Source: a virus. Taken from it: a DNA stretch of 37,823 bases. Under the pieces are notes generated by a model that saw nothing but the letters and a program-made list of their open reading frames with translations, searched no databases and was not told where the DNA came from. Positions 15,576 through 31,740 of this stretch are shown here, piece after piece; the stretch's first letter is position 1, and every line of letters begins with the position of its first letter. The DNA lies in IMG/VR virus record IMGVR_UViG_3300020457_000026, positions 1 to 37,823 of that record; one strand, 5' to 3'. Made by a program: the position numbers and the translations under genes.

Positions 15576-16064
15576 ATGCCATACACAATTAAAAGAGCTA
15601 GAAAAAAAGATTTCTATAAAAATGTTCAAGATGCAGATGAACAAAAACATTTGAAAAAAGTAGAAGAGGAAAGAAAGAGAGCACAGATATCTGGTTCAGC
15701 ACTTGATGCTACCGACCCACTAAGGGATGAAAGAGGATATTTGTTATCATATGAAGACCCTGAAAATGTTAGAAATGATGGAACACCAGTTTCACTTGAA
15801 GAAGATTATCAATATGTAAGATTATCAGTTACACAAAAATCATCTAATACAAGTTTGTTTGAAAAATACTTAGGAGAGAAATCTGAATTTACAGAATTTA
15901 CTGATGAAGAAACTATAGAAGAATCAGAAACACCTACAGCAGAAGAATTACAAAGATTGAGAGATACACTAAAAAATGAGATTGATGCTCAAGTAACACT
16001 AAACCAAGATTTAGAAACAGAGATTGGAAATTTACAAGCAAGAATAGTGGAGTTAAATGACTAA
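15576..16064 (+). CDS. Coiled-coil baseplate-region protein, 162 aa
   Basis: Highly charged. A basic start (TIKRARKKDFYKNV) is followed by a Lys/Glu-rich helix and a middle acidic stretch (FTDEETIEESETPTAEE). A C-terminal coiled coil follows (LRDTLKNEIDAQVTLNQDLE, EIGNLQARIVELN). Its stop overlaps the start of the 1629-residue structural gene, so the two are probably made together; the coiled coil could trimerise it or act as its chaperone. No family recognised. Confidence 0.68.
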   Translation: MPYTIKRARKKDFYKNVQDADEQKHLKKVEEERKRAQISGSALDATDPLRDERGYLLSYEDPENVRNDGTPVSLEEDYQYVRLSVTQKSSNTSLFEKYLGEKSEFTEFTDEETIEESETPTAEELQRLRDTLKNEIDAQVTLNQDLETEIGNLQARIVELND

Positions 16065-19000
16065 TGTTAACATACGGATTAACACAAAAAGATAAAGAAC
16101 AATTAGAAATCAAAAAAAATCTGTATACAGGTTTTGGAAGAGATGGTCGTGATTATATTCATTTGTATGTTTATCAATCTGATACGCCTGATGTTGATGA
16201 TAATGATGTATTGATAAAAGATGAAATCTTTCCATTAGATGTTGTTGAGTTCCAAGATGATAAAACAATGGATTTAGATATTGGTACTCATCTTCGTGCC
16301 ATGGGTTTTGAGAGTGGAACACATAAAGTAAAATATCTTTTTCTAAGAAGATTGGCTGGTAAAGATGAAGTTGTATTTGTAAATGAAGATGGTGAGATAC
16401 ATACCAATAGAGTTCAAACAAAAGTTATCAACGGAAAAACAAGATACTATGCTACCAAGAAATTCGGTAAAAGTCAATCAAGACAACAATTAAAAGAAAT
16501 ATTTCCTAAAGATTTAAAATATGTAATAAAGAAAATATCAGGTGATAGAACTGAATTAGAAATTGATTGTCAAGAAATAAATAATAATATTTACAAGAAA
16601 AATTTTAGAGAAATAAACAAGATAATAAATTATACACCAACAACATTAGTAAATGATTCTAATACAGGTACTATCAGATTTGATTTAACAGACCCTACTA
16701 TACTGATTGCTAATTTAGATAAGAATGATAGAGGGTTTACTGATTCTATGGTGGGTGGTGAAATAACTATAAAAGGTGTTTATTCAATCACGAGTGACCA
16801 ATTGGTTATACCAGAGATTCCACCAATAGATTTATCTGAACCATTATTCACACCACAAGAATTTGAACCTACTAATGTTATACTTGAGAGGGTAGTATCA
16901 AATGACCCACCATCTATTCCTGAATTGGTAGATGAAAAGATACAAGATTATGAAGATGGAAACTATGATAATGATAGATATGGTAGTGTTTGTTTTCATG
17001 GAGATACACGAGTTAAATTAAGTAACAATCGTTCTGTACCAATCAAAATGATTAGACCAGGTATGAAAGTTAAAACCGAACAAGGTTATGCAAAAGTTCT
17101 TAAAGTAGTTAAAGATGGAAGACCTGATGGTGAAAGATTAGTAAAGTTTGGTAGGTTGATTACTACAGATAACCATCCGATAAAATATCGTGGTCAATGG
17201 TACATGGCAAAAGAAGTTGGAAAATTATTTCAATCAAAATCATTAGAGGTATGGAATCTTATATTAGATAAACACCACACAATATATGCTAACAATGTTG
17301 TTAGTGCTACACTTGGTAAGTGGGATAGTATAGAACAATTCTTATATCAGAAAAATCATCGTATCAATATGTTAAGAGCACAAGATGAAGATTATGGTGG
17401 AGATGGTGGAGTCGGTGGAGGCGGAGGTGGTTCTTCAAGTGGTGAGGGTGATAGTCCAGGTACTACCATTCCTACAAGAGAATCAATACCAAATTCAAAT
17501 GCCTATCAATCTGATAATGAAATTATAGTAGATGATATTGTACCAAGTGTTACTCGTGAGTTCTTAGAATCTAATTTTGCGGTATCAAGACAATTACCAA
17601 ATCCTGTTCCACCACCACCACCAGCTACAATCATACCTATAGATTATAAGGCTAGAATCGTTGAGGTATTAGATTTTAACAGAGTGAGAGTGGATATAAG
17701 TTATGAACAAGGTGCTAATAATACAGACCATAGTGGTGAGGATACTTCGAAAGATATATATCAAGAGTTCATGGTTCAGTTTACAAAATCACAAATAAAA
17801 AGATTGAATTCTTATTTAGTTATAAATGGTACTTATAATCTAATCACTAACATAAAAGATAATCCAAATGGTACTTCTCGTTTTATAAAAGTGTATTCAC
17901 CAATTATTGATGAGATTGAGGAAATGGATTTATGTTACTTTGTAGATGAGAAAATGGAACCATACAGAGATATCGTTGAATTAGTACCATTTGTAGAAGA
18001 GGAAGAAGAAGTATTATTTTTGAGGTTACCAGATTTTAATTCTGTTAACAATCCAATCAATATGAGGTCTACTAACTTTAATAATTTTGACCAATTGGTT
18101 GGAAGTGATACTACCGTATCACAAGATATACAAAACAAAGTACTATCACAAAGTTTATTAGATGTACAAGTTAATGTAGATTACACAAAAAGAACTGATG
18201 CTATTGATGAGTTCGAACCAGATTTTGGTTTTGGTAATTTTGTAACCTTTGGTAGTGCTGAAAAGAGAATAAATAATTTTAAAAAGAAATTAGAGTTAAT
18301 ACAAACTTATACTTCTTCAAGTTTAGCATTAAATAATGTTACTGGTTCGGCGAGAACAAGAACTGAGTTTGATAATAAAAAGAGAAGAGTAATAAATTCA
18401 TTTGACCCTTATGAACATTTTTTATATTTTGAAAGTGCATCAGCGGCATCAAGTTCAATCGGTGAATTCTATGATGCAAGTTGGCCAAAAGATAATTCTA
18501 CCGAACCATATATTGTATCACATACAAGTAGTTCAGTAGCTACAACATGGTACAATACTTGGACGGGATATGCTAAAAGTTATGATAGATTGAATCGTGA
18601 AAGATTGGTAAATAACTTACCACTTCATGTTACTGCTGATACAGAGAATAACTTCTTTTTAGATTTTATGGATATGATTGGTCAACAATTTGATGAGATA
18701 TTTGTTTACACAAGACACTTTACTGATATCAATGAAAGAACAAGTAAATTAAGTGAGGGTATTTCTAAAGATATCGTAAGAGAAGTTGCAAAATCTGTAG
18801 GGATAGATGTAGTGAATGGTAATGATTTATTAATTTTACCACAATACCTTTTAGGTAAAGATTCTGATGGTACAGATTTATTTGAAACACCACAAGAAAA
18901 AGTAACAGAAGAAATATGGAAAAGAATACTTGCTAATACACCATTCTTCTTAAAAACAAAAGGAACGATAAGAGCTCTAAAAGGATTGATGAATTGTTAT

Positions 19001-20953
19001 GGTATACCAAGTTCAATACTTAGAGTTCGTGAGTATGGTGGACCCGATAAAGGAACAAGAGTTAGTTTCGAAATAAAAAGAAAGTTTACTTATGCATTAG
19101 ATTTTAAATCAAATGAGTATTTACGATTGCCTTGGAAAGATGATTCTAATTCAATGAAACCACAAACCGTTGAGTTTAGATTTAGAAGTCCTATATCAAA
19201 AGACCAAGTGTTAGTACACAAAGGTAGTGGTAATGATAGTTGGGCAATACAATTACAAGATAACGGACAAACTGATAATTTTGGTTTCTTACAATTTGCA
19301 CTTAGTTCTTCTATAGGTGTTACACGAATTTCATCATCACTACAACCATTTTATAATGATGATATGTGGAGTGTGATGTTAACAAGAAAATCTTCAAGTG
19401 GAGCAGATTTAACAGCAGATACTCATACACAAAAAATTAAATATGAATTAACTACAAAACAATATGATGCCACACGAGAAGTAATTTTATATCAAACAAG
19501 TCAAAGTGTAGTATTGGATGGTAGTACATCAGCCAATGCTTATAACAATGGTTTTGTTACAGATGGTGATGTTATATTAGGTGGTAGTGGTAGTTCAGGA
19601 TACTTTACAGATTTTAGTGGTTCGATGATGGAGTTCAGATTATGGAGTGAACCATTATCACAAAGTTCATTTGATAATCATGTAAGAGCACCAAAATCTT
19701 ATAATGGAAACACTACATCATCATACTATGATAATTTACTTTTTAGGGCTGAATTAAATAATAATGTTAATTTACAAACATTCCCAAGTGCTTCTCAAGA
19801 TACATCAAATGCTAAGTTGTATCACACGAGTGCAAGTGCTCATGATTTTACAGGTAACAATTTTAGAAGTATTGTAGATAAAGAACAATTGAAAGTTCCT
19901 AATCTTGGACCTCAAAGAAGAAATGCTACAAAGATTAGAATCGAAGATACAACATTGAGTGGCCCACTTTCATCTAATATTAGAAGAGAGAAATCATCAC
20001 AAGATTTTGCACCTGTAGATAGTAATAAGTTGGGAGTTTATTTTTCACCAACGGATATTGTGAATGAAGATATCATTTATAGTATAGCTAACTTTGATTT
20101 TGATAATCAAGTTGGTGACCCAAGAGACCAATACAAATTATCTTACAGAGGATTAACATACTCACAAAATCAATATTGGAAAAAGTATGATAGAACAAAT
20201 AACTTTTGGGATTATATGAGAATCATAAATTTTTATGATAATAGTTTATGGACACAATTAAGAAACTTAACACCAGCAAGAGCAAATACTACATTGGGTT
20301 TATTAATAGAACCAAACATTTTAGAAAGAAGTAAAGAAATAGTTGGACAACCACCTGAGTTTACAAATGAGTATTTTGAAAATGCTGGACACTTTGATTT
20401 TGGTTTACAAATTACAGATAGAGTAAGTGGTTCTTCTGTACCATTTACATTTAGTGGTGAGTTTAAAATGTTCGGACAAGGTATCACTAATACAAAAGAT
20501 GGTACAATAAATTTACATAATACTGAGAGTGGTTCACTTGGTAACTTAGGTTTACCATCATTGGTACACTTAAATGAAATAAATCCAAGAAGTGAATTCA
20601 GTACAACATATGCTACTGCAAGTATCACATTTGGTGGAACCAATACAGAATTTACCGAGACGGTACAACCCTTTATCAGTAGTTCAAGAATATCTGAACA
20701 CAATGAGATAAAGAGGATGATTTATACAAGTTCATTAGATGCTCTAACTGATACACCATTTAGTTCATCATTCGAACCTGCTGAGTTTCAGAGTATGGCT
20801 TACGAATCAAACTTGTTTAGATTATTTTATAAAGGACAATTATTAACAAAAGATAATACAATAGATGGAAAAGACCCTGTTGAGATAACTATAACTTCAC
20901 CTACTAAACTTGTTACACAAGAACCAGGTGAATCAAAACTTAAAGTGGAATAA
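16064..20953 (+). CDS. Giant baseplate/tail structural protein with an embedded Hint (intein-like) domain, 1629 aa
   Basis: Largest protein here, placed where T4-like phages carry gp7-type wedge or fibre proteins. Residues 1-309 form a strand-rich N-terminal part. A Hint domain occupies about 310-418: Cys at 310 (CFHGDTRV), IRPGMKV, TTDNHP with T368/H371, and VWNLILDKHHTIYANN. The end reads NNVVSATLG, without the His-Asn plus nucleophile needed for splicing. A Gly-rich linker (~445-465) and a proline run (~515) follow. Residues ~1030-1210 look like a concanavalin/LamG-type sandwich (PQTVEFRFRSPIS...MMEFRLWSEPLS). Autocleavage at C310 is possible but unproven. The ATG overlaps the upstream stop. 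Confidence 0.85.
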   Translation: MLTYGLTQKDKEQLEIKKNLYTGFGRDGRDYIHLYVYQSDTPDVDDNDVLIKDEIFPLDVVEFQDDKTMDLDIGTHLRAMGFESGTHKVKYLFLRRLAGKDEVVFVNEDGEIHTNRVQTKVINGKTRYYATKKFGKSQSRQQLKEIFPKDLKYVIKKISGDRTELEIDCQEINNNIYKKNFREINKIINYTPTTLVNDSNTGTIRFDLTDPTILIANLDKNDRGFTDSMVGGEITIKGVYSITSDQLVIPEIPPIDLSEPLFTPQEFEPTNVILERVVSNDPPSIPELVDEKIQDYEDGNYDNDRYGSVCFHGDTRVKLSNNRSVPIKMIRPGMKVKTEQGYAKVLKVVKDGRPDGERLVKFGRLITTDNHPIKYRGQWYMAKEVGKLFQSKSLEVWNLILDKHHTIYANNVVSATLGKWDSIEQFLYQKNHRINMLRAQDEDYGGDGGVGGGGGGSSSGEGDSPGTTIPTRESIPNSNAYQSDNEIIVDDIVPSVTREFLESNFAVSRQLPNPVPPPPPATIIPIDYKARIVEVLDFNRVRVDISYEQGANNTDHSGEDTSKDIYQEFMVQFTKSQIKRLNSYLVINGTYNLITNIKDNPNGTSRFIKVYSPIIDEIEEMDLCYFVDEKMEPYRDIVELVPFVEEEEEVLFLRLPDFNSVNNPINMRSTNFNNFDQLVGSDTTVSQDIQNKVLSQSLLDVQVNVDYTKRTDAIDEFEPDFGFGNFVTFGSAEKRINNFKKKLELIQTYTSSSLALNNVTGSARTRTEFDNKKRRVINSFDPYEHFLYFESASAASSSIGEFYDASWPKDNSTEPYIVSHTSSSVATTWYNTWTGYAKSYDRLNRERLVNNLPLHVTADTENNFFLDFMDMIGQQFDEIFVYTRHFTDINERTSKLSEGISKDIVREVAKSVGIDVVNGNDLLILPQYLLGKDSDGTDLFETPQEKVTEEIWKRILANTPFFLKTKGTIRALKGLMNCYGIPSSILRVREYGGPDKGTRVSFEIKRKFTYALDFKSNEYLRLPWKDDSNSMKPQTVEFRFRSPISKDQVLVHKGSGNDSWAIQLQDNGQTDNFGFLQFALSSSIGVTRISSSLQPFYNDDMWSVMLTRKSSSGADLTADTHTQKIKYELTTKQYDATREVILYQTSQSVVLDGSTSANAYNNGFVTDGDVILGGSGSSGYFTDFSGSMMEFRLWSEPLSQSSFDNHVRAPKSYNGNTTSSYYDNLLFRAELNNNVNLQTFPSASQDTSNAKLYHTSASAHDFTGNNFRSIVDKEQLKVPNLGPQRRNATKIRIEDTTLSGPLSSNIRREKSSQDFAPVDSNKLGVYFSPTDIVNEDIIYSIANFDFDNQVGDPRDQYKLSYRGLTYSQNQYWKKYDRTNNFWDYMRIINFYDNSLWTQLRNLTPARANTTLGLLIEPNILERSKEIVGQPPEFTNEYFENAGHFDFGLQITDRVSGSSVPFTFSGEFKMFGQGITNTKDGTINLHNTESGSLGNLGLPSLVHLNEINPRSEFSTTYATASITFGGTNTEFTETVQPFISSSRISEHNEIKRMIYTSSLDALTDTPFSSSFEPAEFQSMAYESNLFRLFYKGQLLTKDNTIDGKDPVEITITSPTKLVTQEPGESKLKVE

Positions 20954-21019
20954 AACTTGAGTAAGTATATATTTATCTATGAGGTTTTCCATCTCAAATA
21001 AATCAATTAGGAGTAAAAA

Positions 21020-21847
21020 ATGGGATTTCTAAATAATACAAGCGTAACCGTAGATGCCGTTCTTACCAAAAAAGGTCGAGAATTGTTGGCGAGAGGGCAA
21101 GACGAGTTCAAAATCACAAAGTTTGCGTTAGCAGATGATGAGATTGATTACAGTTTGTGGGATGTCGCACACCCAAATGGTTCAAACTTTTATGGTGCTG
21201 TGATTGAGAATATGCCTCTATTGGAAGCTTTTGTTGATGAGAACCAAGTGATGAGATATAAGTTAGTATCCTTACCTAAGAATACTGCCAAACTTCCAAT
21301 ACTTGAAGTTCCATCACCAACATTAAGTTTCAATGGGCCTGGTATTACACAAACCATCACACCAAATACAAGAAATGGTAGTGATAATGAAAGTGGGTAT
21401 AATTTTATATTACACGATGCAACAATAGCAAATTTAACACCTGTTATTGTGGCTAAGAAAGATAGACCTAAAAGGAAAAATGTTCGTAGACGAGGTGGTA
21501 TTGATGAGAGTATTCTCAGTGCAGTACGACGAGGTGGAGCAGGAGCAGCTTTAGGTACTTTTAATGCAGGTGCTGGTAGGAGTGTTATACCACAACCTTT
21601 ACTTGATGAAGATTTCTTAATTGCAAAAGAGATTGAAGATTTACAAGTAAACACAGGTGCAACTACTCCTGTATTCGTTAACGAAGAGGAAAGAAAAAGG
21701 TCTATTACCTTAACAGGTAAATCAGTTAACCTTGTTTCTCGTTCAGTAACTACAGATACTTCAACAAATGTAACGGTAGTTGGTTTAGATAGTGGGGCTA
21801 CATTTAATGTGGCAGTTACTGTTAAGGCTGACCCAAGTAGATTATAA
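21020..21847 (+). CDS. Virion structural protein, 275 aa
   Basis: Preceded by TTAGGAG (ribosome site) after a 66-base gap. The N-terminus (FLNNTSVTVDAVLTKKGREL, EFKITKFALADDEIDYSLW) is a segment I recall as widespread among structural proteins of marine T4-like phages; an exact family name cannot be given. The middle holds a basic Arg/Gly patch (DRPKRKNVRRRGG, AVRRGGAGAALG), and the C-terminus is a beta domain (SITLTGKSVNLVSRSV, NVTVVGLDSGATFNVAVTV). It is likely a tail or fibre-associated component, opening a sub-operon of three structural genes with AGGAG-type ribosome sites. Confidence 0.72.
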   Translation: MGFLNNTSVTVDAVLTKKGRELLARGQDEFKITKFALADDEIDYSLWDVAHPNGSNFYGAVIENMPLLEAFVDENQVMRYKLVSLPKNTAKLPILEVPSPTLSFNGPGITQTITPNTRNGSDNESGYNFILHDATIANLTPVIVAKKDRPKRKNVRRRGGIDESILSAVRRGGAGAALGTFNAGAGRSVIPQPLLDEDFLIAKEIEDLQVNTGATTPVFVNEEERKRSITLTGKSVNLVSRSVTTDTSTNVTVVGLDSGATFNVAVTVKADPSRL

Positions 21848-21857
21848 GGAGTAGAAA

Positions 21858-22868
21858 ATGTCAGTATTTACAAGATTCGATTTTGATAACGATGTAGTAG
21901 AAAATCAAAGAACTAAAGTATCAAGTGGTATCTTTAGTGGTGGTTCAGGAACTCTAAATACTTATTTTAGTTCATCAACCGCTGGTTCAGTAAGTGCATC
22001 TTTCGTAAGTGTATTTAACAAGGCTACTTCAGATGCAACAGCAGAAGTTCAGTTTGATATTGGATATGCTAATGTGGATGGAAGTGGTTCTGCTGGTAAC
22101 ACTACTAAGTTGAACACAGGTGGTAGACAATCTGCCGCTATGTATAGTCAATTTAGAAATGTATTGTTAGCACCAGATACACAAAGATTTACATTTACAG
22201 GAGCTTCTTCAGGTTCAAATGATTTCTACTTTATTACTTTCAACAGAGCAAGAATGAGAGAAAAGATTGACCCAGGCAATTGGGAATTAGTATTAGGTTC
22301 AGCTAATTTAAAACTAATTGATGATAGTGGAGCTTCAAACAATCCAACTGTTAATGAGGGTGGAAGAGTATTTAATATTGTTTCAGGTTCATTAGAAACA
22401 GGTGTAGGAGTTGTTAACACAGCAGCTACATCACAACCAGGTGGATGTTTTGGTTCATTCTTTCCAGATTTAGGAATAATATTATTAGATGCTTCTCAAT
22501 TAGATGCAAGTGCCTCATTAGGTACTGGTAGAAGTGCAGATACATTTGATAATAACAATGCTAAGTTCTTTCAGAGTTTATCTGATGGTGGAAAGTTCCA
22601 AGTTCGTAGAGAAGAAGAAATTAGTTCTACTAACTTTTTCTGTAGGGTGAATAACAAAAGGTATAACTTTAGTTCTAACCCAACATACTTTACAGGTTCA
22701 GATGGAAGTTTCGTACAACCAACATATTTTAAAGACCCTAAAGTTTATATTACAACTGTAGGACTTTATAATGATGATAACGAATTATTAGCAGTTGCTA
22801 AATTAAGTAAACCAATTTTGAAATCATATTCAAGGGAAGCTATCATTAAGGTTAAACTTGACTTCTAA
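21858..22868 (+). CDS. Virion structural protein, paralogue of the next gene, 336 aa
   Basis: Ribosome site AAGGAG just before the ATG. A Ser/Gly/Thr-rich beta protein. Its last ~45 residues (VYITTVGLYNDDNELLAVAKLSKPI...REAIIKVKLDF) closely match the end of the following gene product, so the two share a C-terminal module and probably a common origin. The N-terminal halves have diverged. It is likely an abundant outer virion or fibre protein; a role in host contact is possible but not shown. Confidence 0.72.
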   Translation: MSVFTRFDFDNDVVENQRTKVSSGIFSGGSGTLNTYFSSSTAGSVSASFVSVFNKATSDATAEVQFDIGYANVDGSGSAGNTTKLNTGGRQSAAMYSQFRNVLLAPDTQRFTFTGASSGSNDFYFITFNRARMREKIDPGNWELVLGSANLKLIDDSGASNNPTVNEGGRVFNIVSGSLETGVGVVNTAATSQPGGCFGSFFPDLGIILLDASQLDASASLGTGRSADTFDNNNAKFFQSLSDGGKFQVRREEEISSTNFFCRVNNKRYNFSSNPTYFTGSDGSFVQPTYFKDPKVYITTVGLYNDDNELLAVAKLSKPILKSYSREAIIKVKLDF

Positions 22869-22879
22869 GGGAAACCGAA

Positions 22880-23893
22880 ATGTTAAAAAACATTGACCCA
22901 TCAAATAAGTCAATAAAACCATTTAAAGTTTTTAAAGATTTCACTCTCACAAATATTGATAGTGGGAGTGGACACTTTGCTTTGAAAGCAGAGAGTGGTT
23001 CTATTCTTAACTTCCAAACAGGTTCAGCCGCATCACAATCTTTCGGTGAGTATATCCCAAGTGCCAGTAAATTTAGTATGGGAACTTTCTATAGTTTACC
23101 TACTTGGCACTCTGTAAATCAGTTGTACTACAAGAGAAAGAATGAACCTTTCGGAAACTTTGGTAAAAATGATTCTAATAAAATGAATCGTGAACTAAAC
23201 TCGACCGCCAGAGTATTTACAATCCCACGAAACTTATTTGGTGAACAAGTTAAACCTGGTAGTATTGAATTAAATGTTACCATCTCTGGTGTAACATATA
23301 CATTAAAAGATGATGGTGATGGTAACATTTATGATTTCGCTCACTCTGCAAGTTTTGCAGCATTCAAATCAAGTTCGTTTAATCGGGCTCAAGGTGTTGA
23401 ATCAAATGGAAGTGGTAGTGAGGTTGGAAATGTTATTTATGAACATGGTCAAATTATAATTACTGATACAGGTTCATATTCAGAAGCAGGTACAAGTACA
23501 GGTCATACATTGAAGTATAAAGCAACACAAACAATATATGAACACGAGTATCTTGTAGAAATAGAACCAAATGAATTTAACAGAACTACTAATATAAGTG
23601 CAACACAAGATAGAAGTGGTAGTTTAACTATAGCAGAGGGAAGTGTTAATATCAGTAATTTCTTCCCACCTGGTGACCAACCGACTGGAGCTGGTACAGG
23701 TAGTTTCAAAACTTCATACAATGCCGCACAACGATATGAGGGATTCGTAACTCATTCCGAGTTCAGACCTTATGTTACTACAGTTGGTTTGTATAACGAT
23801 AGTGATGAGTTGATGGCGATAGGAAAGATTGCAAAACCAATAAAATTAAGTAACGATGTTACCACAACAATCGTTGTAAGGTTTGATATATAA
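22880..23893 (+). CDS. Virion structural protein, paralogue of the previous gene, 337 aa
   Basis: Same length as the preceding product (337 versus 336) and the same C-terminal module: PYVTTVGLYNDSDELMAIGKIAKPI...TTTIVVRFDI. The middle carries GSIELNVTISGVTYTLKDDGDGNIYD and repeated Ser/Gly-rich strands, as expected for a tail/fibre subunit. It is the last gene of the structural block; a 120-base gap with a repeated AT-rich motif follows. Tandem duplication with divergence of the N-terminal part is the simplest explanation. Confidence 0.72.
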   Translation: MLKNIDPSNKSIKPFKVFKDFTLTNIDSGSGHFALKAESGSILNFQTGSAASQSFGEYIPSASKFSMGTFYSLPTWHSVNQLYYKRKNEPFGNFGKNDSNKMNRELNSTARVFTIPRNLFGEQVKPGSIELNVTISGVTYTLKDDGDGNIYDFAHSASFAAFKSSSFNRAQGVESNGSGSEVGNVIYEHGQIIITDTGSYSEAGTSTGHTLKYKATQTIYEHEYLVEIEPNEFNRTTNISATQDRSGSLTIAEGSVNISNFFPPGDQPTGAGTGSFKTSYNAAQRYEGFVTHSEFRPYVTTVGLYNDSDELMAIGKIAKPIKLSNDVTTTIVVRFDI

Positions 23894-24013
23894 CACATAA
23901 CCAACAAATTATTTTTTATATATATTATATTTATTATTGAACTAAATTAAGGCTACACCATACCCGTATGTTCAAGCGGGACGATTATAAACAACATATA
24001 AAGGAAAATACTC
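23894..24013 (+). promoter_or_regulatory. Leader/promoter region before the envelope module
   Basis: A 120-base gap. TATTTATTATTGA at 23928-23940 is an exact 13-base copy of 9414-9426, in the gap before the structural operon. Further on, CATAC-CC-GTATG (23959-23970) is a small palindrome and CCCG...CGGG (23963-23980) a short inverted repeat, either of which could be an operator or leader hairpin. A ribosome site AAAGGA precedes the ATG at 24014. Confidence 0.4.
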
Positions 24014-26893
24014 ATGAAGAGGATTTTAAATTGGCTCTTTTTATTGGGCTTTGTCGGAATGGCCACCGCCCAAGAACCAATTATTAGAGTTAAACAAATA
24101 GGGAATTGGTCTACACCAGCGATGTGGTGGAAAGGCTCGGTTACACAAGATTTAGATGATTTCTTGGCACAAGATGTATCTAAACCAGCTGAAGATAATA
24201 ATAACTTCGATATTTGGAGAGATAAAGTATTGGAGATGGAAGTTACTTTGGATGATAAAGGTGCAGATGTTACGACATTCAGAATAGATATTGCATTTGA
24301 TAATGATTTAATTACTTGGGTAGAATCAGGTGAAACTTCAGTTAACGCTTGGAGTCAAGGTGAATCACGAGTAATCAAAGGTTCACATATTTCAGGTTGG
24401 ACTGAGGGTGATGAAAGTTCTAATGCAGATTATTCTTTCGAAGTAGTTCATTATACAAATGTAGGATATCAAGATTCATTGGCGGCCACAGGTAATTTGA
24501 TTGAAGAATCTATATCAGATGATAGATATGATTGGTTAAGAATAACAATGGTATCACATGGAGTTGATGGTAATTCAGATGGAACACCAGATAAAACATT
24601 TGGTGGTGGTAATGGAGTACAAAAACAATTATTAAAATTTAAATTTAAAATAAATGATGTGGTGGATAACTTTGCACCTAAATCATTCAGAGTTGCAACT
24701 CAGTATGATGGAGCAGAGGGATACTACACATATGTTTCAGATGAATATCTTTTAGATTACAAAGTTTACATAGATGGTAATTGGGGTGATACATATGCAG
24801 GAGAAAGAACTTACAATGGTGCTGCTCGTGGTGATATCACACTACATCCTAAACTTGTAGATGTTGAGGGATACTTTAGATATATTGGTGAATGGAATGA
24901 TACCGATAAAGATGGAACAAAAGATACTAATGAAGAATACTCAAGAAACAAATATGCTATGTGGAAAGTTATCTTCGAGTTAGATGAAAGTAATCCAGAT
25001 GAGTTTACGAATTGGTTGAATCTTCGTGATATTAATTATCCATCAAGTTTAACTGATGAGGGAACTACTGATGATGTTATGGGTACTTATGATGAGTATG
25101 GAACAAATGCATTAGGGTATCAACATATGAGATACTATGAACAAAATGCAGGTTCAACATCAGACCAGAAAATTCAAAACGATGGATTCAATGGAGTATC
25201 TTTTTGGTATTGGACATATACAGATGATAAAGGATACTTTAATATTTCTTTACCACGAAACAATAGATATCGTGTATCTTTTTGGCCACCAGAAGCAGAT
25301 GATGTGGTTGGTGACCATACTACTTATTTATTAGATAGAGATGCAATCACAAATATCAATGATGCTATTGCAGGATTTAATTTCCAATCAAATAAATTTG
25401 ATAATGTAACTGATATTGAAATAGAATCACCAAGTGGTTATTTAATTGGTGATGTTGATGGAGATGATAGATATCAATTAAATGATGCATATTTTTTATG
25501 GGCATACACAAGTGGTGTGTTTGATACAGATTATACTCATACTAATGGAGAAACATATCAATCATGGGCAAGTATAGATAATTTAAAAACAGGTAATAAT
25601 AATGAAACACTTAATTATTATCAGACTGTAAATGGAAGTGCAAGATTACAAAAAAGAGAATTCAGTATCTTTGTTGATGATGATTTAGCACAAGAAACTG
25701 CAGTACTAACTAAAGACCAAGGTGGTATTATTAGATTTAATCCATTGATGGATGATGTTCAGACAGGATTAGATACACTAAGTATTAAAATAGGTGCAGG
25801 TAGTTCTACATTTGGAAATGATGTAAATCCTGATTACTTATTTGATACCGATGATAATGATAAACAAGTTGATATTATTGGAACATCAAACGATTCTGAT
25901 ATTGGATATTATTTTACAGGTGATGTAAACCTAACAGGTACAAAAGTTGATAACGATGGAACTGCAATTACACCAGTTGTAGATGGAACAACATATTATC
26001 GTTGGGGTAGTGGAGACCCACCTGATACATGGGCAAGAATAGGTGGTGAACCTGGTAATGGTAATAGAAGTATGTCAGCAATGAAATCATTGATGACAGA
26101 CCATGATGTAACATTATCATTTCCTGCTGATTCAACTGTAAGAGTACAGAGTGGTGAGATTATCGAAGTACCATTAAATATTACACCATCAGAGGGTATT
26201 AATATTGCTGGGTTTGAATTTGAAGTAGAGTTTAATGTAAATGAATTAACCTTTATTGATATGAAAACTGGTAACTTGCCAGGGCCTTGGATGACCTATG
26301 TAAATGTAGGTGAAGTTGAAGCAGGATGGCAAAGAGTTAGATTTGGTGGATTTGATTACTCACCAGGTAATGCTCCTACTAACTATTGGGTTACTCAACA
26401 AATGAATGCATTAAAGTTAATGTTCAGAGCGGAGTTTCCTGATGAGGAGTGGAGTGAGGCTCCTATTAGATTCGTTGGTAAATATGCAGCGGGTAATCCA
26501 AATGGTGATGATTTAAGAATGGAGAGAGAAAGTGGTAAGGTAATGGTATGGAATAAGTATTGGGCATTCGGTGGTGGAGAACCAGGTGAAGAGGATATAA
26601 CTTATAACTATCCAAATCCATTTAAAGAAAATACTAAATTTCAATTCTTCTTAGATGAAATGGAACAAGTAAAAATTTACATATTAAATTCCAATGGACA
26701 ATACATTGGAACATTATTAGATGAAGTAGTTGATGCTGGAATACACACATTTGATTTCACTAACCAACCAAGTGTTTGGTTACCTGAAGTGAGTGTGTAT
26801 GAGAATCATAAAACTTTAGAACCAGGTGTTTACATATTTGTTTTACAAACTGATGATAGAATCAAAGCAAATAAATTTACGGTGGTTAAATAA
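24014..26893 (+). CDS. Secreted protein with T9SS type A sorting domain, cohesin-like and EF-hand (dockerin-like) segments, 959 aa
   Basis: A clear signal peptide (MKRILNWLFLLGFVGMATAQ) should send it through Sec. Residues 480-491 (GDVDGDDRYQLND) form a dockerin-like calcium loop, with D480/D482/D484 and D491. About 696-845 resemble a cohesin-type sandwich (VPLNITPSEGINIAGFEFEV...). The last 94 residues start at YPNPF (866-870) and read as a T9SS C-terminal sorting domain (VKIYILNSNGQYIG...LEPGVYIFVLQ...KFTVVK). In FCB bacteria such domains carry cargo across the outer membrane to the surface. This is cellular-type cargo in a phage genome, next to a PorV/PorQ-like gene. It may coat the infected cell or alter phage adsorption; both are inference. 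Confidence 0.82.
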   Translation: MKRILNWLFLLGFVGMATAQEPIIRVKQIGNWSTPAMWWKGSVTQDLDDFLAQDVSKPAEDNNNFDIWRDKVLEMEVTLDDKGADVTTFRIDIAFDNDLITWVESGETSVNAWSQGESRVIKGSHISGWTEGDESSNADYSFEVVHYTNVGYQDSLAATGNLIEESISDDRYDWLRITMVSHGVDGNSDGTPDKTFGGGNGVQKQLLKFKFKINDVVDNFAPKSFRVATQYDGAEGYYTYVSDEYLLDYKVYIDGNWGDTYAGERTYNGAARGDITLHPKLVDVEGYFRYIGEWNDTDKDGTKDTNEEYSRNKYAMWKVIFELDESNPDEFTNWLNLRDINYPSSLTDEGTTDDVMGTYDEYGTNALGYQHMRYYEQNAGSTSDQKIQNDGFNGVSFWYWTYTDDKGYFNISLPRNNRYRVSFWPPEADDVVGDHTTYLLDRDAITNINDAIAGFNFQSNKFDNVTDIEIESPSGYLIGDVDGDDRYQLNDAYFLWAYTSGVFDTDYTHTNGETYQSWASIDNLKTGNNNETLNYYQTVNGSARLQKREFSIFVDDDLAQETAVLTKDQGGIIRFNPLMDDVQTGLDTLSIKIGAGSSTFGNDVNPDYLFDTDDNDKQVDIIGTSNDSDIGYYFTGDVNLTGTKVDNDGTAITPVVDGTTYYRWGSGDPPDTWARIGGEPGNGNRSMSAMKSLMTDHDVTLSFPADSTVRVQSGEIIEVPLNITPSEGINIAGFEFEVEFNVNELTFIDMKTGNLPGPWMTYVNVGEVEAGWQRVRFGGFDYSPGNAPTNYWVTQQMNALKLMFRAEFPDEEWSEAPIRFVGKYAAGNPNGDDLRMERESGKVMVWNKYWAFGGGEPGEEDITYNYPNPFKENTKFQFFLDEMEQVKIYILNSNGQYIGTLLDEVVDAGIHTFDFTNQPSVWLPEVSVYENHKTLEPGVYIFVLQTDDRIKANKFTVVK

Positions 26894-27000
26894 TGGAAAC
26901 GATAAAATTTTTTGGATTATTATTTTTAATATTACCTGCAGGGTTTTATACTCTAAAGGGAATACTTTGGGTATCTGAAAAATTGGAGAAGAAACAATGA
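26893..27000 (+). CDS. Single-helix membrane peptide, 35 aa
   Basis: Starts by TAATG overlap with the T9SS cargo gene and ends by ATGA overlap with the PorV/PorQ-like gene. It has one hydrophobic helix (FFGLLFLILPAGFYTLKGIL) and a basic C-terminal tail (EKLEKKQ). The double coupling suggests it is translated. It could be a small helper of the adjacent envelope proteins. No homology recognised. Confidence 0.55.
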   Translation: METIKFFGLLFLILPAGFYTLKGILWVSEKLEKKQ

Positions 27001-27866
27001 AAAATATATTAATGGGATTATTAATGATTGGTACTTTGTTTGGACAAGTAAATAGTGTCCTTACAATTTCACCTACTACAAGTGAAACAATATTGGGTAA
27101 CCAATCACTTGCATTTAGAAATCCTGCAATCAACAATCTAAATGAAGATACACTAACACACCTTAGTTTTTCTAATGTGAAATGGTTAGGTAATATTGTT
27201 GATGATATGGGTTTTAACTATGTAGGAGTTAAAAAAGGTAAATTAGATTATTCACTTTTATACTTTAACTATGGGGAACAAAACTTCGCAGATGAAAGTG
27301 GTATTATAAGTGGTAATTTTTCACCAAGTACATTAGTTGCATCAATAGGTTGGGGTACTAATTTACTATACAAAGGTGAGAGAGTAGATAGCGTGGCACT
27401 TGGTTTTAGAGGAAAGGTTGTTAGCCATGATTTACATACAGAAAAAACTGATGGTATGTTATTTGATATAGGTTTACACTTTCAAAAATTATATGGAATT
27501 GTAAACTTAGATTTAATGGTATCTAATATTGGTTTGATGACTAAAATGAATGGTTATGAAATTGATATGCCATCTGCATTTAATGTTGGATTTAACATAC
27601 CGATAAAAGATAAATGGAATATTTATAATCAATGGAATCTTTATGATGGATACCATACACATGGTCAAGGTGTTTCTTATAACTATAAGAATATGTTATG
27701 GGTAAATGCTGGATACTATAATGATGTAACTTATAACTTAAATTATTCATCCATAGGTATGGATTTAAAATTCGAAAGATACAAGATTGGTTTGGGTATC
27801 TTAAACGGAGATGATACTCATCCATTGAAAAATACATTATTATTAACATTAAACATGGAGATATAA
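26997..27866 (+). CDS. PorV/PorQ-like outer-membrane protein (T9SS-associated barrel), 289 aa
   Basis: Signal peptide (MKNILMGLLMIGTLFGQ), then an FadL/PorV-type barrel. The N-terminal LGNQSLAFRNPAINNL recalls the ANPA segment of PorV/PorQ. Later strands LDYSLLYFNYGEQNFADESG, ALGFRGKVVSHDL, DGMLFDIGLHFQ, DLMVSNIGLMTKM and MPSAFNVGFNIPI follow the PorQ order and length (~290-340). PorV shuttles cargo by binding its C-terminal sorting domain; PorQ belongs to the surface attachment complex. The preceding large gene encodes such cargo. No other T9SS parts (Sov, PorL/M/N/K) are in the window, so host machinery would be needed. PorV versus PorQ versus a generic FadL-like barrel is unresolved. Confidence 0.68.
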   Translation: MKNILMGLLMIGTLFGQVNSVLTISPTTSETILGNQSLAFRNPAINNLNEDTLTHLSFSNVKWLGNIVDDMGFNYVGVKKGKLDYSLLYFNYGEQNFADESGIISGNFSPSTLVASIGWGTNLLYKGERVDSVALGFRGKVVSHDLHTEKTDGMLFDIGLHFQKLYGIVNLDLMVSNIGLMTKMNGYEIDMPSAFNVGFNIPIKDKWNIYNQWNLYDGYHTHGQGVSYNYKNMLWVNAGYYNDVTYNLNYSSIGMDLKFERYKIGLGILNGDDTHPLKNTLLLTLNMEI

Positions 27867-27918: not shown

Positions 27919-28299
27919 ATGGCAAAAGATATAGAACAAGCTATTGAAGAAGTTAAAGGAAAAAAGTTTGGAGTATCGATTAATAATATTATTGCTATTG
28001 TTACTTTTCTTTCTACCTGTATCGCTGGTTGGTATAGTTTTACTGGCCGTATTGATTCATTGGAAGAAGTAGTACAAGGTTTTGCAGAAGCAAGTGATAT
28101 TGAAATCGTAACCAATAACTTTAACAATATTGATGAAGAATTAAAGTATCTTAGAGAAAAAGTAGATGCTTTAAAAACACCAAAAGTGAAATCATACGAT
28201 GGTGATATAATTAAACTACAGAATGAGATTGATAAATTGAAAAGTGAAATCTCAAGGTTAGAGAAATTATTAAAAGACCCATTGGCTGATTTCAAGTAA
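27919..28299 (+). CDS. Membrane-anchored coiled-coil protein, 126 aa
   Basis: Ribosome site AAGGAG before the ATG. A short cytoplasmic N-terminus is followed by one transmembrane helix (~21-42, NNIIAIVTFLSTCIAGWYSF), then a long coiled coil (IDEELKYLREKVDALK and IIKLQNEIDKLKSEISRLEKLLKD). The topology resembles spanin inner-membrane subunits or cell-envelope tethering proteins. It sits within the envelope module directly after the Cys-rich minigene. A similar layout is seen in the 108-residue protein at 31894. Function unknown. Confidence 0.7.
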   Translation: MAKDIEQAIEEVKGKKFGVSINNIIAIVTFLSTCIAGWYSFTGRIDSLEEVVQGFAEASDIEIVTNNFNNIDEELKYLREKVDALKTPKVKSYDGDIIKLQNEIDKLKSEISRLEKLLKDPLADFK

Positions 28300-28307
28300 G
28301 GAGAAAC

Positions 28308-28691
28308 ATGAGTAAATTCGTGAAACTACTACTCGTAGTGTTAGTGTTTGCAATAGGTTCTCAGTTATTAGGACAGGATGTATATGATACACCTGAAGAA
28401 TATGATAGAGAAATAACCAGACAAGAACAAAGAGAAATAAGACAAAATCTTGCCCAACAAAAAATGGCAAACAAATCTATGATGGAATGGAGAAAATTTG
28501 AAGCAGCACATAAAAGAGCTCATATGAAATCATTACATCATAATAAAAAAACAAACAGGCAAAAGAGAATAGTTACTCTTGTTGCTGTAGGTGTTACATC
28601 TTATATCATTGGATATGAAATGGCAAAAGATGAACACAAATATAAAAAACATGGATGGGATAAAAAAACATCCGATAAATGGAGAAAGTAA
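28308..28691 (+). CDS. Secreted/membrane protein with basic helical middle, 127 aa
   Basis: AAGGAG ribosome site before the ATG. Signal peptide or anchor (KFVKLLLVVLVFAIGSQLLGQ) with a cleavage-like site before DVYD. A charged, helical middle follows (REITRQEQREIRQNLAQQ...HKRAHMKSLHHNKKTNRQKR), then a second hydrophobic segment (IVTLVAVGVTSYIIGYEM) and a very basic tail. It is coupled by TAATG to the CsgG-like lipoprotein. It may anchor a periplasmic helix between membranes. No family recognised. Confidence 0.65.
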   Translation: MSKFVKLLLVVLVFAIGSQLLGQDVYDTPEEYDREITRQEQREIRQNLAQQKMANKSMMEWRKFEAAHKRAHMKSLHHNKKTNRQKRIVTLVAVGVTSYIIGYEMAKDEHKYKKHGWDKKTSDKWRK

Positions 28692-29329
28692 TGAAAAAAC
28701 TATTACTATTATCGTTAATGGTTTTTATGGGATGTGCCGCATCAGTATCAACGGAACAATATGTTGGTGAGTATGAGAAACAAAAATCTCTTGATGAAGT
28801 GGAAATAACTAAAGTAGATAATCTAAAGATTATGAATGTTAAGTTCAATAAAGAACTCGAAGAAAGATATCCAGAACTTGGAGATAAAAGAGTTGCTTTT
28901 GGTTTAAACCAAGAACTTGCAAATGTTATTTCTTTCATTGGAAGATTTAATCTTGTAGAGGCAGACAGAGATATTCAATTATCTATGTTGAACGACCTTA
29001 AAGCCAACGAGGCAAAAATAGAAAAAACTAAGTATACTGCTATTGTAACAATTTATGATTTTGCTGTTAACTTAAAAGAAGATATCAAAGCTGGTAAAGT
29101 TCAAACAATAAACGAAACCATCGTAGGTATCCAAGTTAAAGTAATCAATAATGAGAATACTCAGTATGTAGTTGGAAGTGGACAAGGAAGAGCATCCACC
29201 ATAGGACAAGGATTTTTAAAGAATCCTAATATGGAATGGAATCAGAGTTCTTTAAGTTCTGCATCTAACAAGGCTATGGAAACAGCTGTTGTCAATGTTA
29301 TTAAAGCAATTGACAGAAGAGGTTGGTAG
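28691..29329 (+). CDS. CsgG-like outer-membrane lipoprotein, 212 aa
   Basis: The start at 28691 is chosen over 28679 because it gives a textbook lipoprotein signal (MKKLLLLSLMVFMGC, lipid Cys 15) with GGAG 6 bases upstream. The body follows the CsgG/HfaB pattern: LKIMNVKFNK, LNQELANVISFIGRFNLVEADRD, YTAIVTIYDFAVNL, VGIQVKVINNENTQYVVGSGQG and a final helix SSASNKAMETAVVNVIKAI. CsgG itself is a nonameric secretion pore of the outer membrane. Whether this one forms a pore cannot be told, and other lipoproteins share the fold. It lies just before a barrel gene and a second CsgG-like gene. Confidence 0.6.
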   Translation: MKKLLLLSLMVFMGCAASVSTEQYVGEYEKQKSLDEVEITKVDNLKIMNVKFNKELEERYPELGDKRVAFGLNQELANVISFIGRFNLVEADRDIQLSMLNDLKANEAKIEKTKYTAIVTIYDFAVNLKEDIKAGKVQTINETIVGIQVKVINNENTQYVVGSGQGRASTIGQGFLKNPNMEWNQSSLSSASNKAMETAVVNVIKAIDRRGW

Positions 29330-29334
29330 AATGA

Positions 29335-30321
29335 ATGTGGCAGAGAGCTTTATTATTTGTAGGATTATTGTGTAGTACACTCTCTGCCCAAGGCTTCCTT
29401 TATAGTTATATAGACCCTTGTAATCAAACTATCATTCGTGATAATTACAAAATAGAAAATCAATCTGGTGGTTTCTATGTTACATACTATAACAAATCTA
29501 AATTTTTCACATTCGAACAAATAGCAGATGGAACATTAGAAGCGTGGGCAGAAAATGTATACCAAGACTTTGAGGATTTATTTCCATGTGCCGTTAGGGT
29601 TGCTGAAGAAATACTAGCCTCTGTATTGGCGAGTAATGCCACAGAACAATTTAGTAAACAAGATGTAAGTAATGATGTGGGTGCGGTTAATTATGGTATC
29701 AAAACATCACCGACTGTAGATAGTAGTTGGGTTACATCTTTTAATAGTGTTTATACGAGAGAAAGTTTTGATGGTAAATCAAGATATGATGGTAACTTCA
29801 GTTTTACCGATGATTTCAGTAGATTGAGTGCTTCATATGGAAATGGTATAAACTTTCTAGCTAAGAAACAAAATCAAGTGATAAGTGCATCAGGTGTTTT
29901 CTTTCAAACATTTGAGGGTAGTGATTGGTTAGTATCAAGTTCATATGCCAAAACACTTGTAAAACAAAATGCAGAAGTAATTGTATTGACTGGTGCTTAT
30001 GGTAGTGTTAGTAACCAAAGCTTTGGTAACTTATCAGTATTGTATGGTATGAAAACACCAATCACATTACCATTTGGTAAAATAACATTTACTAATTATG
30101 TATCATACACATTACTTAGATATTATAAAGGATTAAATTCAGGAAAACAATATTTATTATTGAAGAGTCCTATTATACTTATGCCTACTCTTTCTTTTGA
30201 TTTTCAATTAAGTCAGGCATTCAAAGTTAATTTAGGATTCTCAATGGGGTATAACACAGTTGTAAATGATTATGGTGAAAGAACTAAAACATATGCCATA
30301 ATGTTTGGAACATACTTTTAG
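29335..30321 (+). CDS. Secreted outer-membrane beta-barrel-like protein, 328 aa
   Basis: Signal peptide (MWQRALLFVGLLCSTLSAQG), cut before FLYSYIDPC. An N-terminal domain with Cys pair candidates (IDPC...LFPC) spans ~25-110. From ~130 on come about ten barrel-like strands: WVTSFNSVYTRESF, DGNFSFTDDFSRLSASYGNG, WLVSSSYAKTL, KITFTNYVSYTLLRYYKGL, FKVNLGFSMGYNTVV, ending TYAIMFGTYF with the C-terminal Phe typical of outer-membrane proteins. The ATG at 29335 is used; the one at 29331 is out of frame and short. It sits between two CsgG-like genes. No family name. Confidence 0.65.
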   Translation: MWQRALLFVGLLCSTLSAQGFLYSYIDPCNQTIIRDNYKIENQSGGFYVTYYNKSKFFTFEQIADGTLEAWAENVYQDFEDLFPCAVRVAEEILASVLASNATEQFSKQDVSNDVGAVNYGIKTSPTVDSSWVTSFNSVYTRESFDGKSRYDGNFSFTDDFSRLSASYGNGINFLAKKQNQVISASGVFFQTFEGSDWLVSSSYAKTLVKQNAEVIVLTGAYGSVSNQSFGNLSVLYGMKTPITLPFGKITFTNYVSYTLLRYYKGLNSGKQYLLLKSPIILMPTLSFDFQLSQAFKVNLGFSMGYNTVVNDYGERTKTYAIMFGTYF

Positions 30322-30330
30322 GAGAAGAAA

Positions 30331-30849
30331 ATGAAGAAACTAATTATGATGTTATTATTGATAGGATTTGGATACACACAATCCTTACCACAACCAGCAG
30401 TTGTTGGTGAAGATGTAGATTTTCCTACATTAAGAATATCACAATTTGTTAAGGTTGATGAATCTGTTGGTGTTGTAGATGATAGAGTTACTTTAGGTAT
30501 AAAACAATTACTTGAAGAACAATTTCAAGATACAAGATACAGATTAACCGAAGATGATAATGCTGATTATACTGCTAATGTAGAGGTACTTTATATTGGT
30601 AAACCAAATGAGGCATTTAGTTTGGCAGGTTTATTCAATCGTAGAAATCAGAGTACAGAAGTTAGAATACTTTTAAACTTAGTACAAACCAAAGAGGGTG
30701 TACAAAAAAGTTATCGTGGAGTTGGTGAAACAACCACACAAGTATCTGCTGCTGGTTTACAAATTCAAGAGGATGTGGAGTTTGGTAAGAGTGAGTTAGG
30801 TGGTTCTTTAAGAAAGGCCATCGAGGATGCTCTTGAGAATATTGAATGA
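30331..30849 (+). CDS. Secreted CsgG-fold-like protein, 172 aa
   Basis: AGGAG ribosome site. Signal peptide (KKLIMMLLLIGFGYTQ), no lipobox Cys. The body shows a similar pattern to the lipoprotein upstream: LRISQFVKVDESVG, VTLGIKQLLEEQFQDTRYRLTEDDNADYTANVEVLYIG, VRILLNLVQ, and a closing helix KSELGGSLRKAIEDALENI. This suggests the CsgG/LpoB-like alpha/beta fold in a soluble periplasmic form. It could be a partner of the barrel at 29335. Assignment is by pattern, not search. Confidence 0.5.
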   Translation: MKKLIMMLLLIGFGYTQSLPQPAVVGEDVDFPTLRISQFVKVDESVGVVDDRVTLGIKQLLEEQFQDTRYRLTEDDNADYTANVEVLYIGKPNEAFSLAGLFNRRNQSTEVRILLNLVQTKEGVQKSYRGVGETTTQVSAAGLQIQEDVEFGKSELGGSLRKAIEDALENIE

Positions 30850-30987: not shown

Positions 30988-31740
30988 ATGTTATTAGAAC
31001 ATTGGCCACAAAAAAGAAGAGAGTGGGTGATAGGTGGATTCCTAAACATTCTCTTCATTTTATGTATTGTGGGAATCAGATATTATTATGCTCAAGAAGA
31101 AATGGAATTCTTGAGAGAAGATTCTGAACGACAAGATGTAATGATTACAGAGTTACAAGATTCTGTTGAGATTTTAGTAAAACAAAATAATGATTTACTA
31201 AAGGATTTACATGACCATGATAAAACTCGTGGTATTGAGAATAGAGAATTAAAGAAAAGAATGGATAACTTTGAAATCGAACTTGATACTATTAAGGAAC
31301 GACTTTCTACACAATCCACTATTTATGATAGTAGAGAATCTTATACAAGTGGTGCTGGTGTAGTACCATTTGAAAAAGAATTTGGTACTCAAGGTAACTA
31401 CTTAAGAATATTTGGTAGGACTGGAGTTGCCATGGTTAACGATAGTATTATAGATTCTGAGACAGAGTTGGGTTTCGATGGTAGTTTACAGATTGGTGAA
31501 CCTAAGATTATTGAAGGTGAGGTAAAAGGTGAATATTATGCTGAAGTACCTACCATTTCATTTGATGGGTTGAGACTAAGTGGGAGAAGAAGTAATCCCT
31601 TAAAACTAAAACCACCAAGAAACCAAATAAGTGTTGGGCCGTTTGCGGGAATTGTATACAATCAAACGACAGGATTAACAGAACCAGTTATAGGATTTGG
31701 TATATCCTATAATGCATTGAAAATATGGGATTGGAGATAA
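30988..31740 (+). CDS. Membrane-anchored coiled-coil protein with beta C-terminus, 250 aa
   Basis: One transmembrane helix (~14-34, VIGGFLNILFILCIVGIRYYY), then a periplasmic coiled coil (QEEMEFLREDSERQ, VEILVKQNNDLLKDLHDHD, LKKRMDNFEIELDTIKERLS). The last ~110 residues form beta strands (YYAEVPTISFDGLRL, ISVGPFAGIVYNQT, PVIGFGISYNALKIW). The plan (TM, coiled coil, barrel-like end) fits a spanin-like or envelope-spanning protein. It starts one base after the stop of the previous gene. A role in lysis is possible but not shown. Confidence 0.7.
   Translation: MLLEHWPQKRREWVIGGFLNILFILCIVGIRYYYAQEEMEFLREDSERQDVMITELQDSVEILVKQNNDLLKDLHDHDKTRGIENRELKKRMDNFEIELDTIKERLSTQSTIYDSRESYTSGAGVVPFEKEFGTQGNYLRIFGRTGVAMVNDSIIDSETELGFDGSLQIGEPKIIEGEVKGEYYAEVPTISFDGLRLSGRRSNPLKLKPPRNQISVGPFAGIVYNQTTGLTEPVIGFGISYNALKIWDWR

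Follow-up and report, generated by a model that had tools for sequence, protein, structure and literature searches.

A phage gene pair encoding a type A T9SS cargo and a PorV-class barrel as a candidate dedicated cargo-carrier system

In host bacteria, type A cargos of the type IX secretion system (T9SS) share one general PorV, whereas type B cargos each have a private PorP/SprF-like carrier that is encoded directly downstream and made in matching amounts (PMC12618676). T9SS-sorted proteins of phages have been described for a Cryophage (PMC7468147) and among crAss-like ORFs (PMC6949934), and these are thought to use the host system. The locus studied here, part of a 37,823-nucleotide virus record that we refer to as the window, raises the question of whether a phage can bring a carrier along with its cargo. 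The original prediction held that a cargo with a sorting domain lies beside a PorV/PorQ-like barrel, and that the phage supplies both for display of a protein on the surface of the infected cell. In our analysis this supply of cargo and carrier is the best-supported mechanism, for which there is no experimental demonstration. The features on which it rests are as follows.

23925..23934, + strand: promoter-like box TTATATTTAT 5' of the cargo gene (function inferred)
24014..26893, + strand: cargo, a 959-aa protein predicted to be exported, with cohesin-like domain(s) and a type A T9SS C-terminal domain
24014..24070, + strand: predicted signal peptide of the cargo (ends ..ATAQ), mature start Q20, which is invariant (by sequence)
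26108..26551, + strand: cohesin-like domain of the cargo, residues about 699-846 (PF00963 and Foldseek)
26609..26884, + strand: type A T9SS sorting domain of the cargo, residues 866-957, with YPNPF start and K954 (TIGR04183)
26893..27000, + strand: 35-codon ORF between cargo and barrel, not required
26997..27866, + strand: putative carrier, a 289-aa PorV-class outer membrane barrel with signal peptide, mature start Q17

Domains of the cargo and descent of the barrel

The claim of a 959-residue signal-peptide protein ending in a T9SS C-terminal domain (CTD) was borne out, since the ORF is present at 24014-26893 and its residues 866-957 matched TIGR04183 with 25.5 bits (E 9.8e-6) against a curated cut-off of 23. 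The second model proposed for checking the CTD, Pfam PF18962, gave only 18.6 bits, under its cut-off of 27. The TIGR04183 cut-off was passed in 20 of 20 long relatives, with one over-cut-off CTD per phage, and the scores of the window and its relatives were modest (25-39 bits). At the N-terminus, the sequences of 54/54 cargos show a hydrophobic leader and a Q at the site of predicted cleavage, and the Q-rule of Bacteroidetes signal peptides (PMC10653852) fits both phage proteins (predicted mature starts Q20 for the cargo and Q17 for the barrel). In addition, the cohesin model PF00963 matched residues 708-755 of the cargo above cut-off (26.1 bits), and its predicted structure (pLDDT 66) gave Foldseek matches to cellulosomal cohesins. 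No C25 domain was detected in the cargo by Pfam or PorU homologue searches, and neither TIGR04131 nor the PorP/SprF-family models matched either protein, so that the criteria for a type B cargo/SprF pair were not met. By its CTD score, Sec signal peptide and C-terminal Lys, the protein is thus classed from sequence as a T9SS type A cargo, its T9SS-dependent secretion being only inferred.

The predicted PorV/PorQ-type character of the 289-residue protein also held up. It matched the PorV/PorQ family model NF033709 with E 4.3e-21, at 75.8 bits against a curated cut-off of 90; the barrels of two relatives scored 95.1 (locus L013, over 90) and 66.4 (L063). Matches to the PorQ model (E 1.5e-14) and the PorV model (4e-10) were both under the curated cut-offs, and because the PorV equivalog NF033710 gave only 39.5 bits, far under its cut-off of 250, the barrel was not filed as PorV itself. 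A PDB search with the single barrel sequence returned no match, but a profile of 12 phage barrels found PorV as the sole sequence match (E 2.1e-12). The barrel model (pLDDT 71) has 14 barrel strands by our count, and its best fold matches were PorV from two T9SS structures (E 6e-11 and 2e-8); OmpG and FadL folds also resemble it. In a maximum-likelihood tree, with group identities assigned by NCBIfam models, 24 phage barrels formed a single clade (support 100/99), with the clade of true PorV as its sister group (96/92); PorQ and other paralogues lay apart. About 70 residues of Flavobacterium johnsoniae PorV, between 234 and 323, have no counterpart in the phage barrel in the alignment, and these may include a loop that contacts SprA. 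A scan of viral sequences with host PorV as query yielded no further viral PorV. Together, the predicted fold and the descent place the barrel in the PorV/PorQ family, with binding of SprA and of the CTD only inferred.

In the substrate-bound translocon, a near-invariant CTD lysine bonds to the carbonyls of PorV Asn87 (N87) and Phe115 (F115) (PMC10994853). A Lys at position -6 from the C-terminus (K954 in the window) is present in 54/54 phage cargos and in 19 of 20 host CTDs. In the barrel, N87 aligns with D69, beside D70, in the motif WLxN..DDM, and F115 aligns with Y92 in FxYGxQ. Both D69 and Y92 fall within the best-conserved internal segments, a likeness to PorV in its CTD-lysine contact regions, and the same stretches were picked as patterns by the search tool.

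Linkage of the pair and its phage context

Viral contigs were scanned with the cargo, the barrel and alignments of both. The 3' end of the cargo was complete on 73 contigs, including the window and one cellular contig, and in all 69 of the 69 having at least 130 nt downstream the cargo was followed by the barrel. Conversely, the cargo was present on 70/70 barrel contigs; this second figure is somewhat biased, as the barrel patterns were built from paired copies, whereas the first is unbiased. The linkage is strict even though the barrels of both classes share only 27-32% identity with that of the window, and dN/dS values of 0.08-0.34 indicate purifying selection on both cargo and barrel. By these counts and dN/dS values, the pairing is not due to chance, and the expectation that related phages keep the pair was met. 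The 35-codon gene that had been noted between the two does exist as an ORF, but it is not essential, since in relatives the cargo-barrel gap can be as short as -4 nt or as long as 495 nt. We also observed that 23 of 39 contigs from the first cargo scan (loci L014-L046) break off within the cargo towards its 3' side, and none towards its 5' side. Local diversity may be the cause, or fragments from further downstream may go unrecognised as viral sequence.

The 37.8-kb window, a virus record, encodes T4-type baseplate wedge proteins along with a primase-like protein, and two long relatives (G297 and G301) carry the pair, a T4-type portal (E 1e-78) and a terminase on one contig, so the pair is phage DNA, as had been proposed. 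The order of tail genes, cargo, barrel, envelope genes and primase recurs in an 82-kb relative. Neither protein had a match in 50,697 annotated phages, and PADLOC gave no match. Homologues of SprA and PorU were not found in the phage records, which are fragments, so that their absence is unproven; both were present in the three cellular FCB genomes tested. The one cellular contig with the pair, L047 (NZWA01000008.1), belongs to the Flavobacteriales MAG NAT55, which has a T9SS. Ribosome-binding motifs precede 45-64% of phage genes as against 3% of NAT55 genes, and because of this mismatch in start signals L047 is probably misbinned and NAT55 was rejected as proof of the host. By inference, an FCB bacterium whose genes have Shine-Dalgarno starts is the likelier host, although the host is not identified. 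Two further genes of the window are of separate interest: that at 16064-20953, among the tail genes, encodes a 1629-aa protein with a Vint/Hint domain (PF14623, E 7e-20), unusual in a tail protein, homologues of which adjoin the cargo in most relatives, and that at 70-912 encodes a homologue of the UV-endonuclease UvdE (E 1e-59).

The box listed above is kept 5' of the cargo in nearly all relatives. In the form TATATTTAT it is shared at window positions 20967, 23925 and 33377, intergenic before phage operons, and is a candidate promoter of these phages, its function being inferred. The copy at 20967 precedes the tail gene at 21020, and this sharing between cargo and tail gene suggests late expression of the cargo, a timing that is likewise inferred. 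Scans for sigma-70 promoters and terminators gave chance levels only.

Cargo and barrel are not an isolated unit; the pair opens a longer block of envelope genes that are inherited together, which continues with the following genes.

27919..28299, + strand: 126-aa membrane/coiled-coil protein, co-inherited with the barrel, in 42/45 representative loci
28679..29329, + strand: 216-aa lipoprotein-like exported protein, co-inherited with the barrel
29335..30321, + strand: 328-aa exported protein with no known match, co-inherited with the barrel
30331..30849, + strand: 172-aa exported protein, paralogue of 28679-29329
30988..31740, + strand: 250-aa membrane-anchored coiled-coil protein, last block gene found

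Distances among the 45 representative loci split into two blocks, the tail genes at 16064-23893 and an envelope block that starts within the cargo, near residue 660-700, includes the barrel and reaches about 31740; the remainder of the cargo is intermediate between the two. A mosaic junction within the cargo gene, at about 25990-26110 of the window, separates stretches with differing histories up- and downstream. The proteins of 28679-29329 and 30331-30849 are mutually paralogous (profile comparison E 1e-9) and belong to no clear known family. A CsgG identity for the former was rejected, as E. coli CsgG aligns over the signal peptide only and PF03783 matched 1 of 28 members, at 0.018. The CTD and the barrel covary strongly after correction for the cargo body (partial correlation 0.75, 0/999 permutations). 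We do not count this as specific evidence of coevolution between them: the cohesin region and the five downstream genes covary as much, so physical linkage can explain it.

A dedicated carrier weighed against other readings

The best explanation of these data, to which we give a probability of about 0.68, is that the pair is a dedicated type A cargo and carrier using the host SprA translocon and laid out like the type B cargo/SprF pairs of hosts. This mechanism builds on what was observed, namely the genes, their domains, the strict linkage, the selection and the relationship to PorV. Sec would export the cargo by way of its signal peptide, whose cleavage site has Q, and the cargo would then fold in the periplasm. 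The phage barrel would insert into the outer membrane and dock at the lateral opening of host SprA in place of host PorV, where its two loop regions, near D69/D70 and near Y92, would receive the type A CTD; barrel and cargo would be drawn out sideways by the host motor. The two may be made together, perhaps in near-equal amounts, and the barrel could stay as an anchor, a role proposed for host type B cargo/SprF pairs (PMC9143113). In this way a cohesin-like protein, probably a late product, would come to be displayed on the infected cell. Docking, transport, stoichiometry, anchoring and timing are inferred, and any purpose, such as a superinfection shield or adhesion of infected cells, is a guess.

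Each of the outcomes that would have refuted the original prediction failed to appear: the model for the CTD does match, the family matched by the barrel is that of PorV and not an unrelated one, and the block is not misassembled host sequence. Misassembly onto a phage contig could point to the single cellular contig with the pair, L047 from a Flavobacteriales MAG, but L047 is phage sequence with start signals unlike those of its MAG. This reading was ruled out by the many independent contigs, as the same layout occurs on about 70 of them from many samples, and by the presence of portal, terminase and pair on a single contig in two relatives. We regard it as very doubtful that the pair has no T9SS function at all, its CTD-like end having a general Ig-like fold of the FlgD type and its barrel being a porin of the general FadL/OmpG kind. 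The modest TIGR04183 scores (25-39 bits) and the resemblance of the barrel to OmpG and FadL folds would allow this, yet the Lys at -6 is retained in 54/54 cargos, PorV comes first by fold, is the sole PDB sequence match and stands beside the phage barrels in the tree, and the linkage of cargo and barrel is strict.

Two other readings were weighed. The pair and the five downstream membrane, lipoprotein and exported proteins might form a late lysis or egress apparatus, that is, an envelope complex opening or remodelling the outer membrane. The barrel, the cargo C-terminus and the genes to 31740 are indeed co-inherited and distinct from the tail genes, the promoter-like box is common to a tail gene, and the products of 27919 and 28679 have Rz-like spanin matches; those similarities are weak, at E 5e-4 to 5e-3, the block has no recognised endolysin or holin, and no lysis role is known for a T9SS-sorted cohesin protein, which leaves such an apparatus improbable. 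The barrel might instead be mainly a competitor that occupies SprA instead of host PorV and stops host type A secretion during infection, with the cargo as a plug or passenger keeping the translocon occupied. A divergent, shortened PorV-class protein in phages in which neither SprA nor PorU was found would suit that role, and the cargo CTD could block the pore, but purifying selection acts on the cargo, which is a large and modular protein, and a plug needs no 900 conserved passenger residues; we consider this, too, unlikely.

The dedicated-carrier reading is preferred because of the identities of CTD and barrel, their linkage and purifying selection, the Lys and its PorV contact sites, the lack of detected SprA and PorU in the phages, and the type B-like layout. 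Counting against it are the below-cut-off scores for NF033709 and PF18962, the approximately 70 missing residues, the pLDDT values of the models (71 for the barrel and 66 for the cargo), the covariation that linkage can explain, the lack of expression data and the unidentified host; moreover, host type A cargos normally share one PorV, and the need of a phage for its own is unproven. With confidence only a little better than even, we go further and propose that these phages replace a moving part of the host secretion system with their own PorV-class shuttle for one type A cargo, in order to commandeer the translocon and cover the infected cell.

Relation to known systems and significance

Compared with PorV (F. 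johnsoniae structures 6H3I/8GL6; NF033710), the phage barrel shares a 14-stranded model and PorV-family sequence as a sister clade. Unlike PorV, which has about 370-400 residues, it has 289, and it is phage-borne, tied to one adjacent cargo and far under the PorV equivalog cut-off. The arrangement is like that of the host type B SprB/SprF pair (PMC12618676) in having the carrier gene directly downstream, with one carrier per cargo, and unlike it in that the signal is of type A (TIGR04183) and the carrier of PorV class, with no TIGR04131 match. Similarly, in the host porU-porV arrangement a CTD-bearing protein is encoded directly upstream of PorV, but PorU is a C25 peptidase and the phage cargo has no C25 domain. 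In cellular FCB genomes (loci L180 and L199), some PorV-family paralogues directly follow a gene for a CTD protein in the same orientation, so bacteria may have private type A pairs as well. The phage genes resemble those of Cryophage and the crAss-like phages in encoding proteins with a T9SS sorting domain; in those phages no carrier has been described and the cargos are variable or different, whereas here one conserved cargo comes with its own barrel. The original prediction that no phage system of this kind had been described therefore stands only in part: phage T9SS cargos are already known, and the accompanying carrier alone appears new. No phage-encoded T9SS carrier was found in the open-access literature, subscription papers and preprints being outside the scope of that search.

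If the dedicated-carrier reading is right, the barrel would be, as far as could be found, the first T9SS component encoded by a phage, and the pair would give a type A cargo its own private carrier, which in host bacteria has been reported for type B cargos only. A small, naturally shortened PorV would then permit a direct test of carrier-CTD specificity, and the pair would point to remodelling of the infected-cell surface by a common group of uncultured marine phages.
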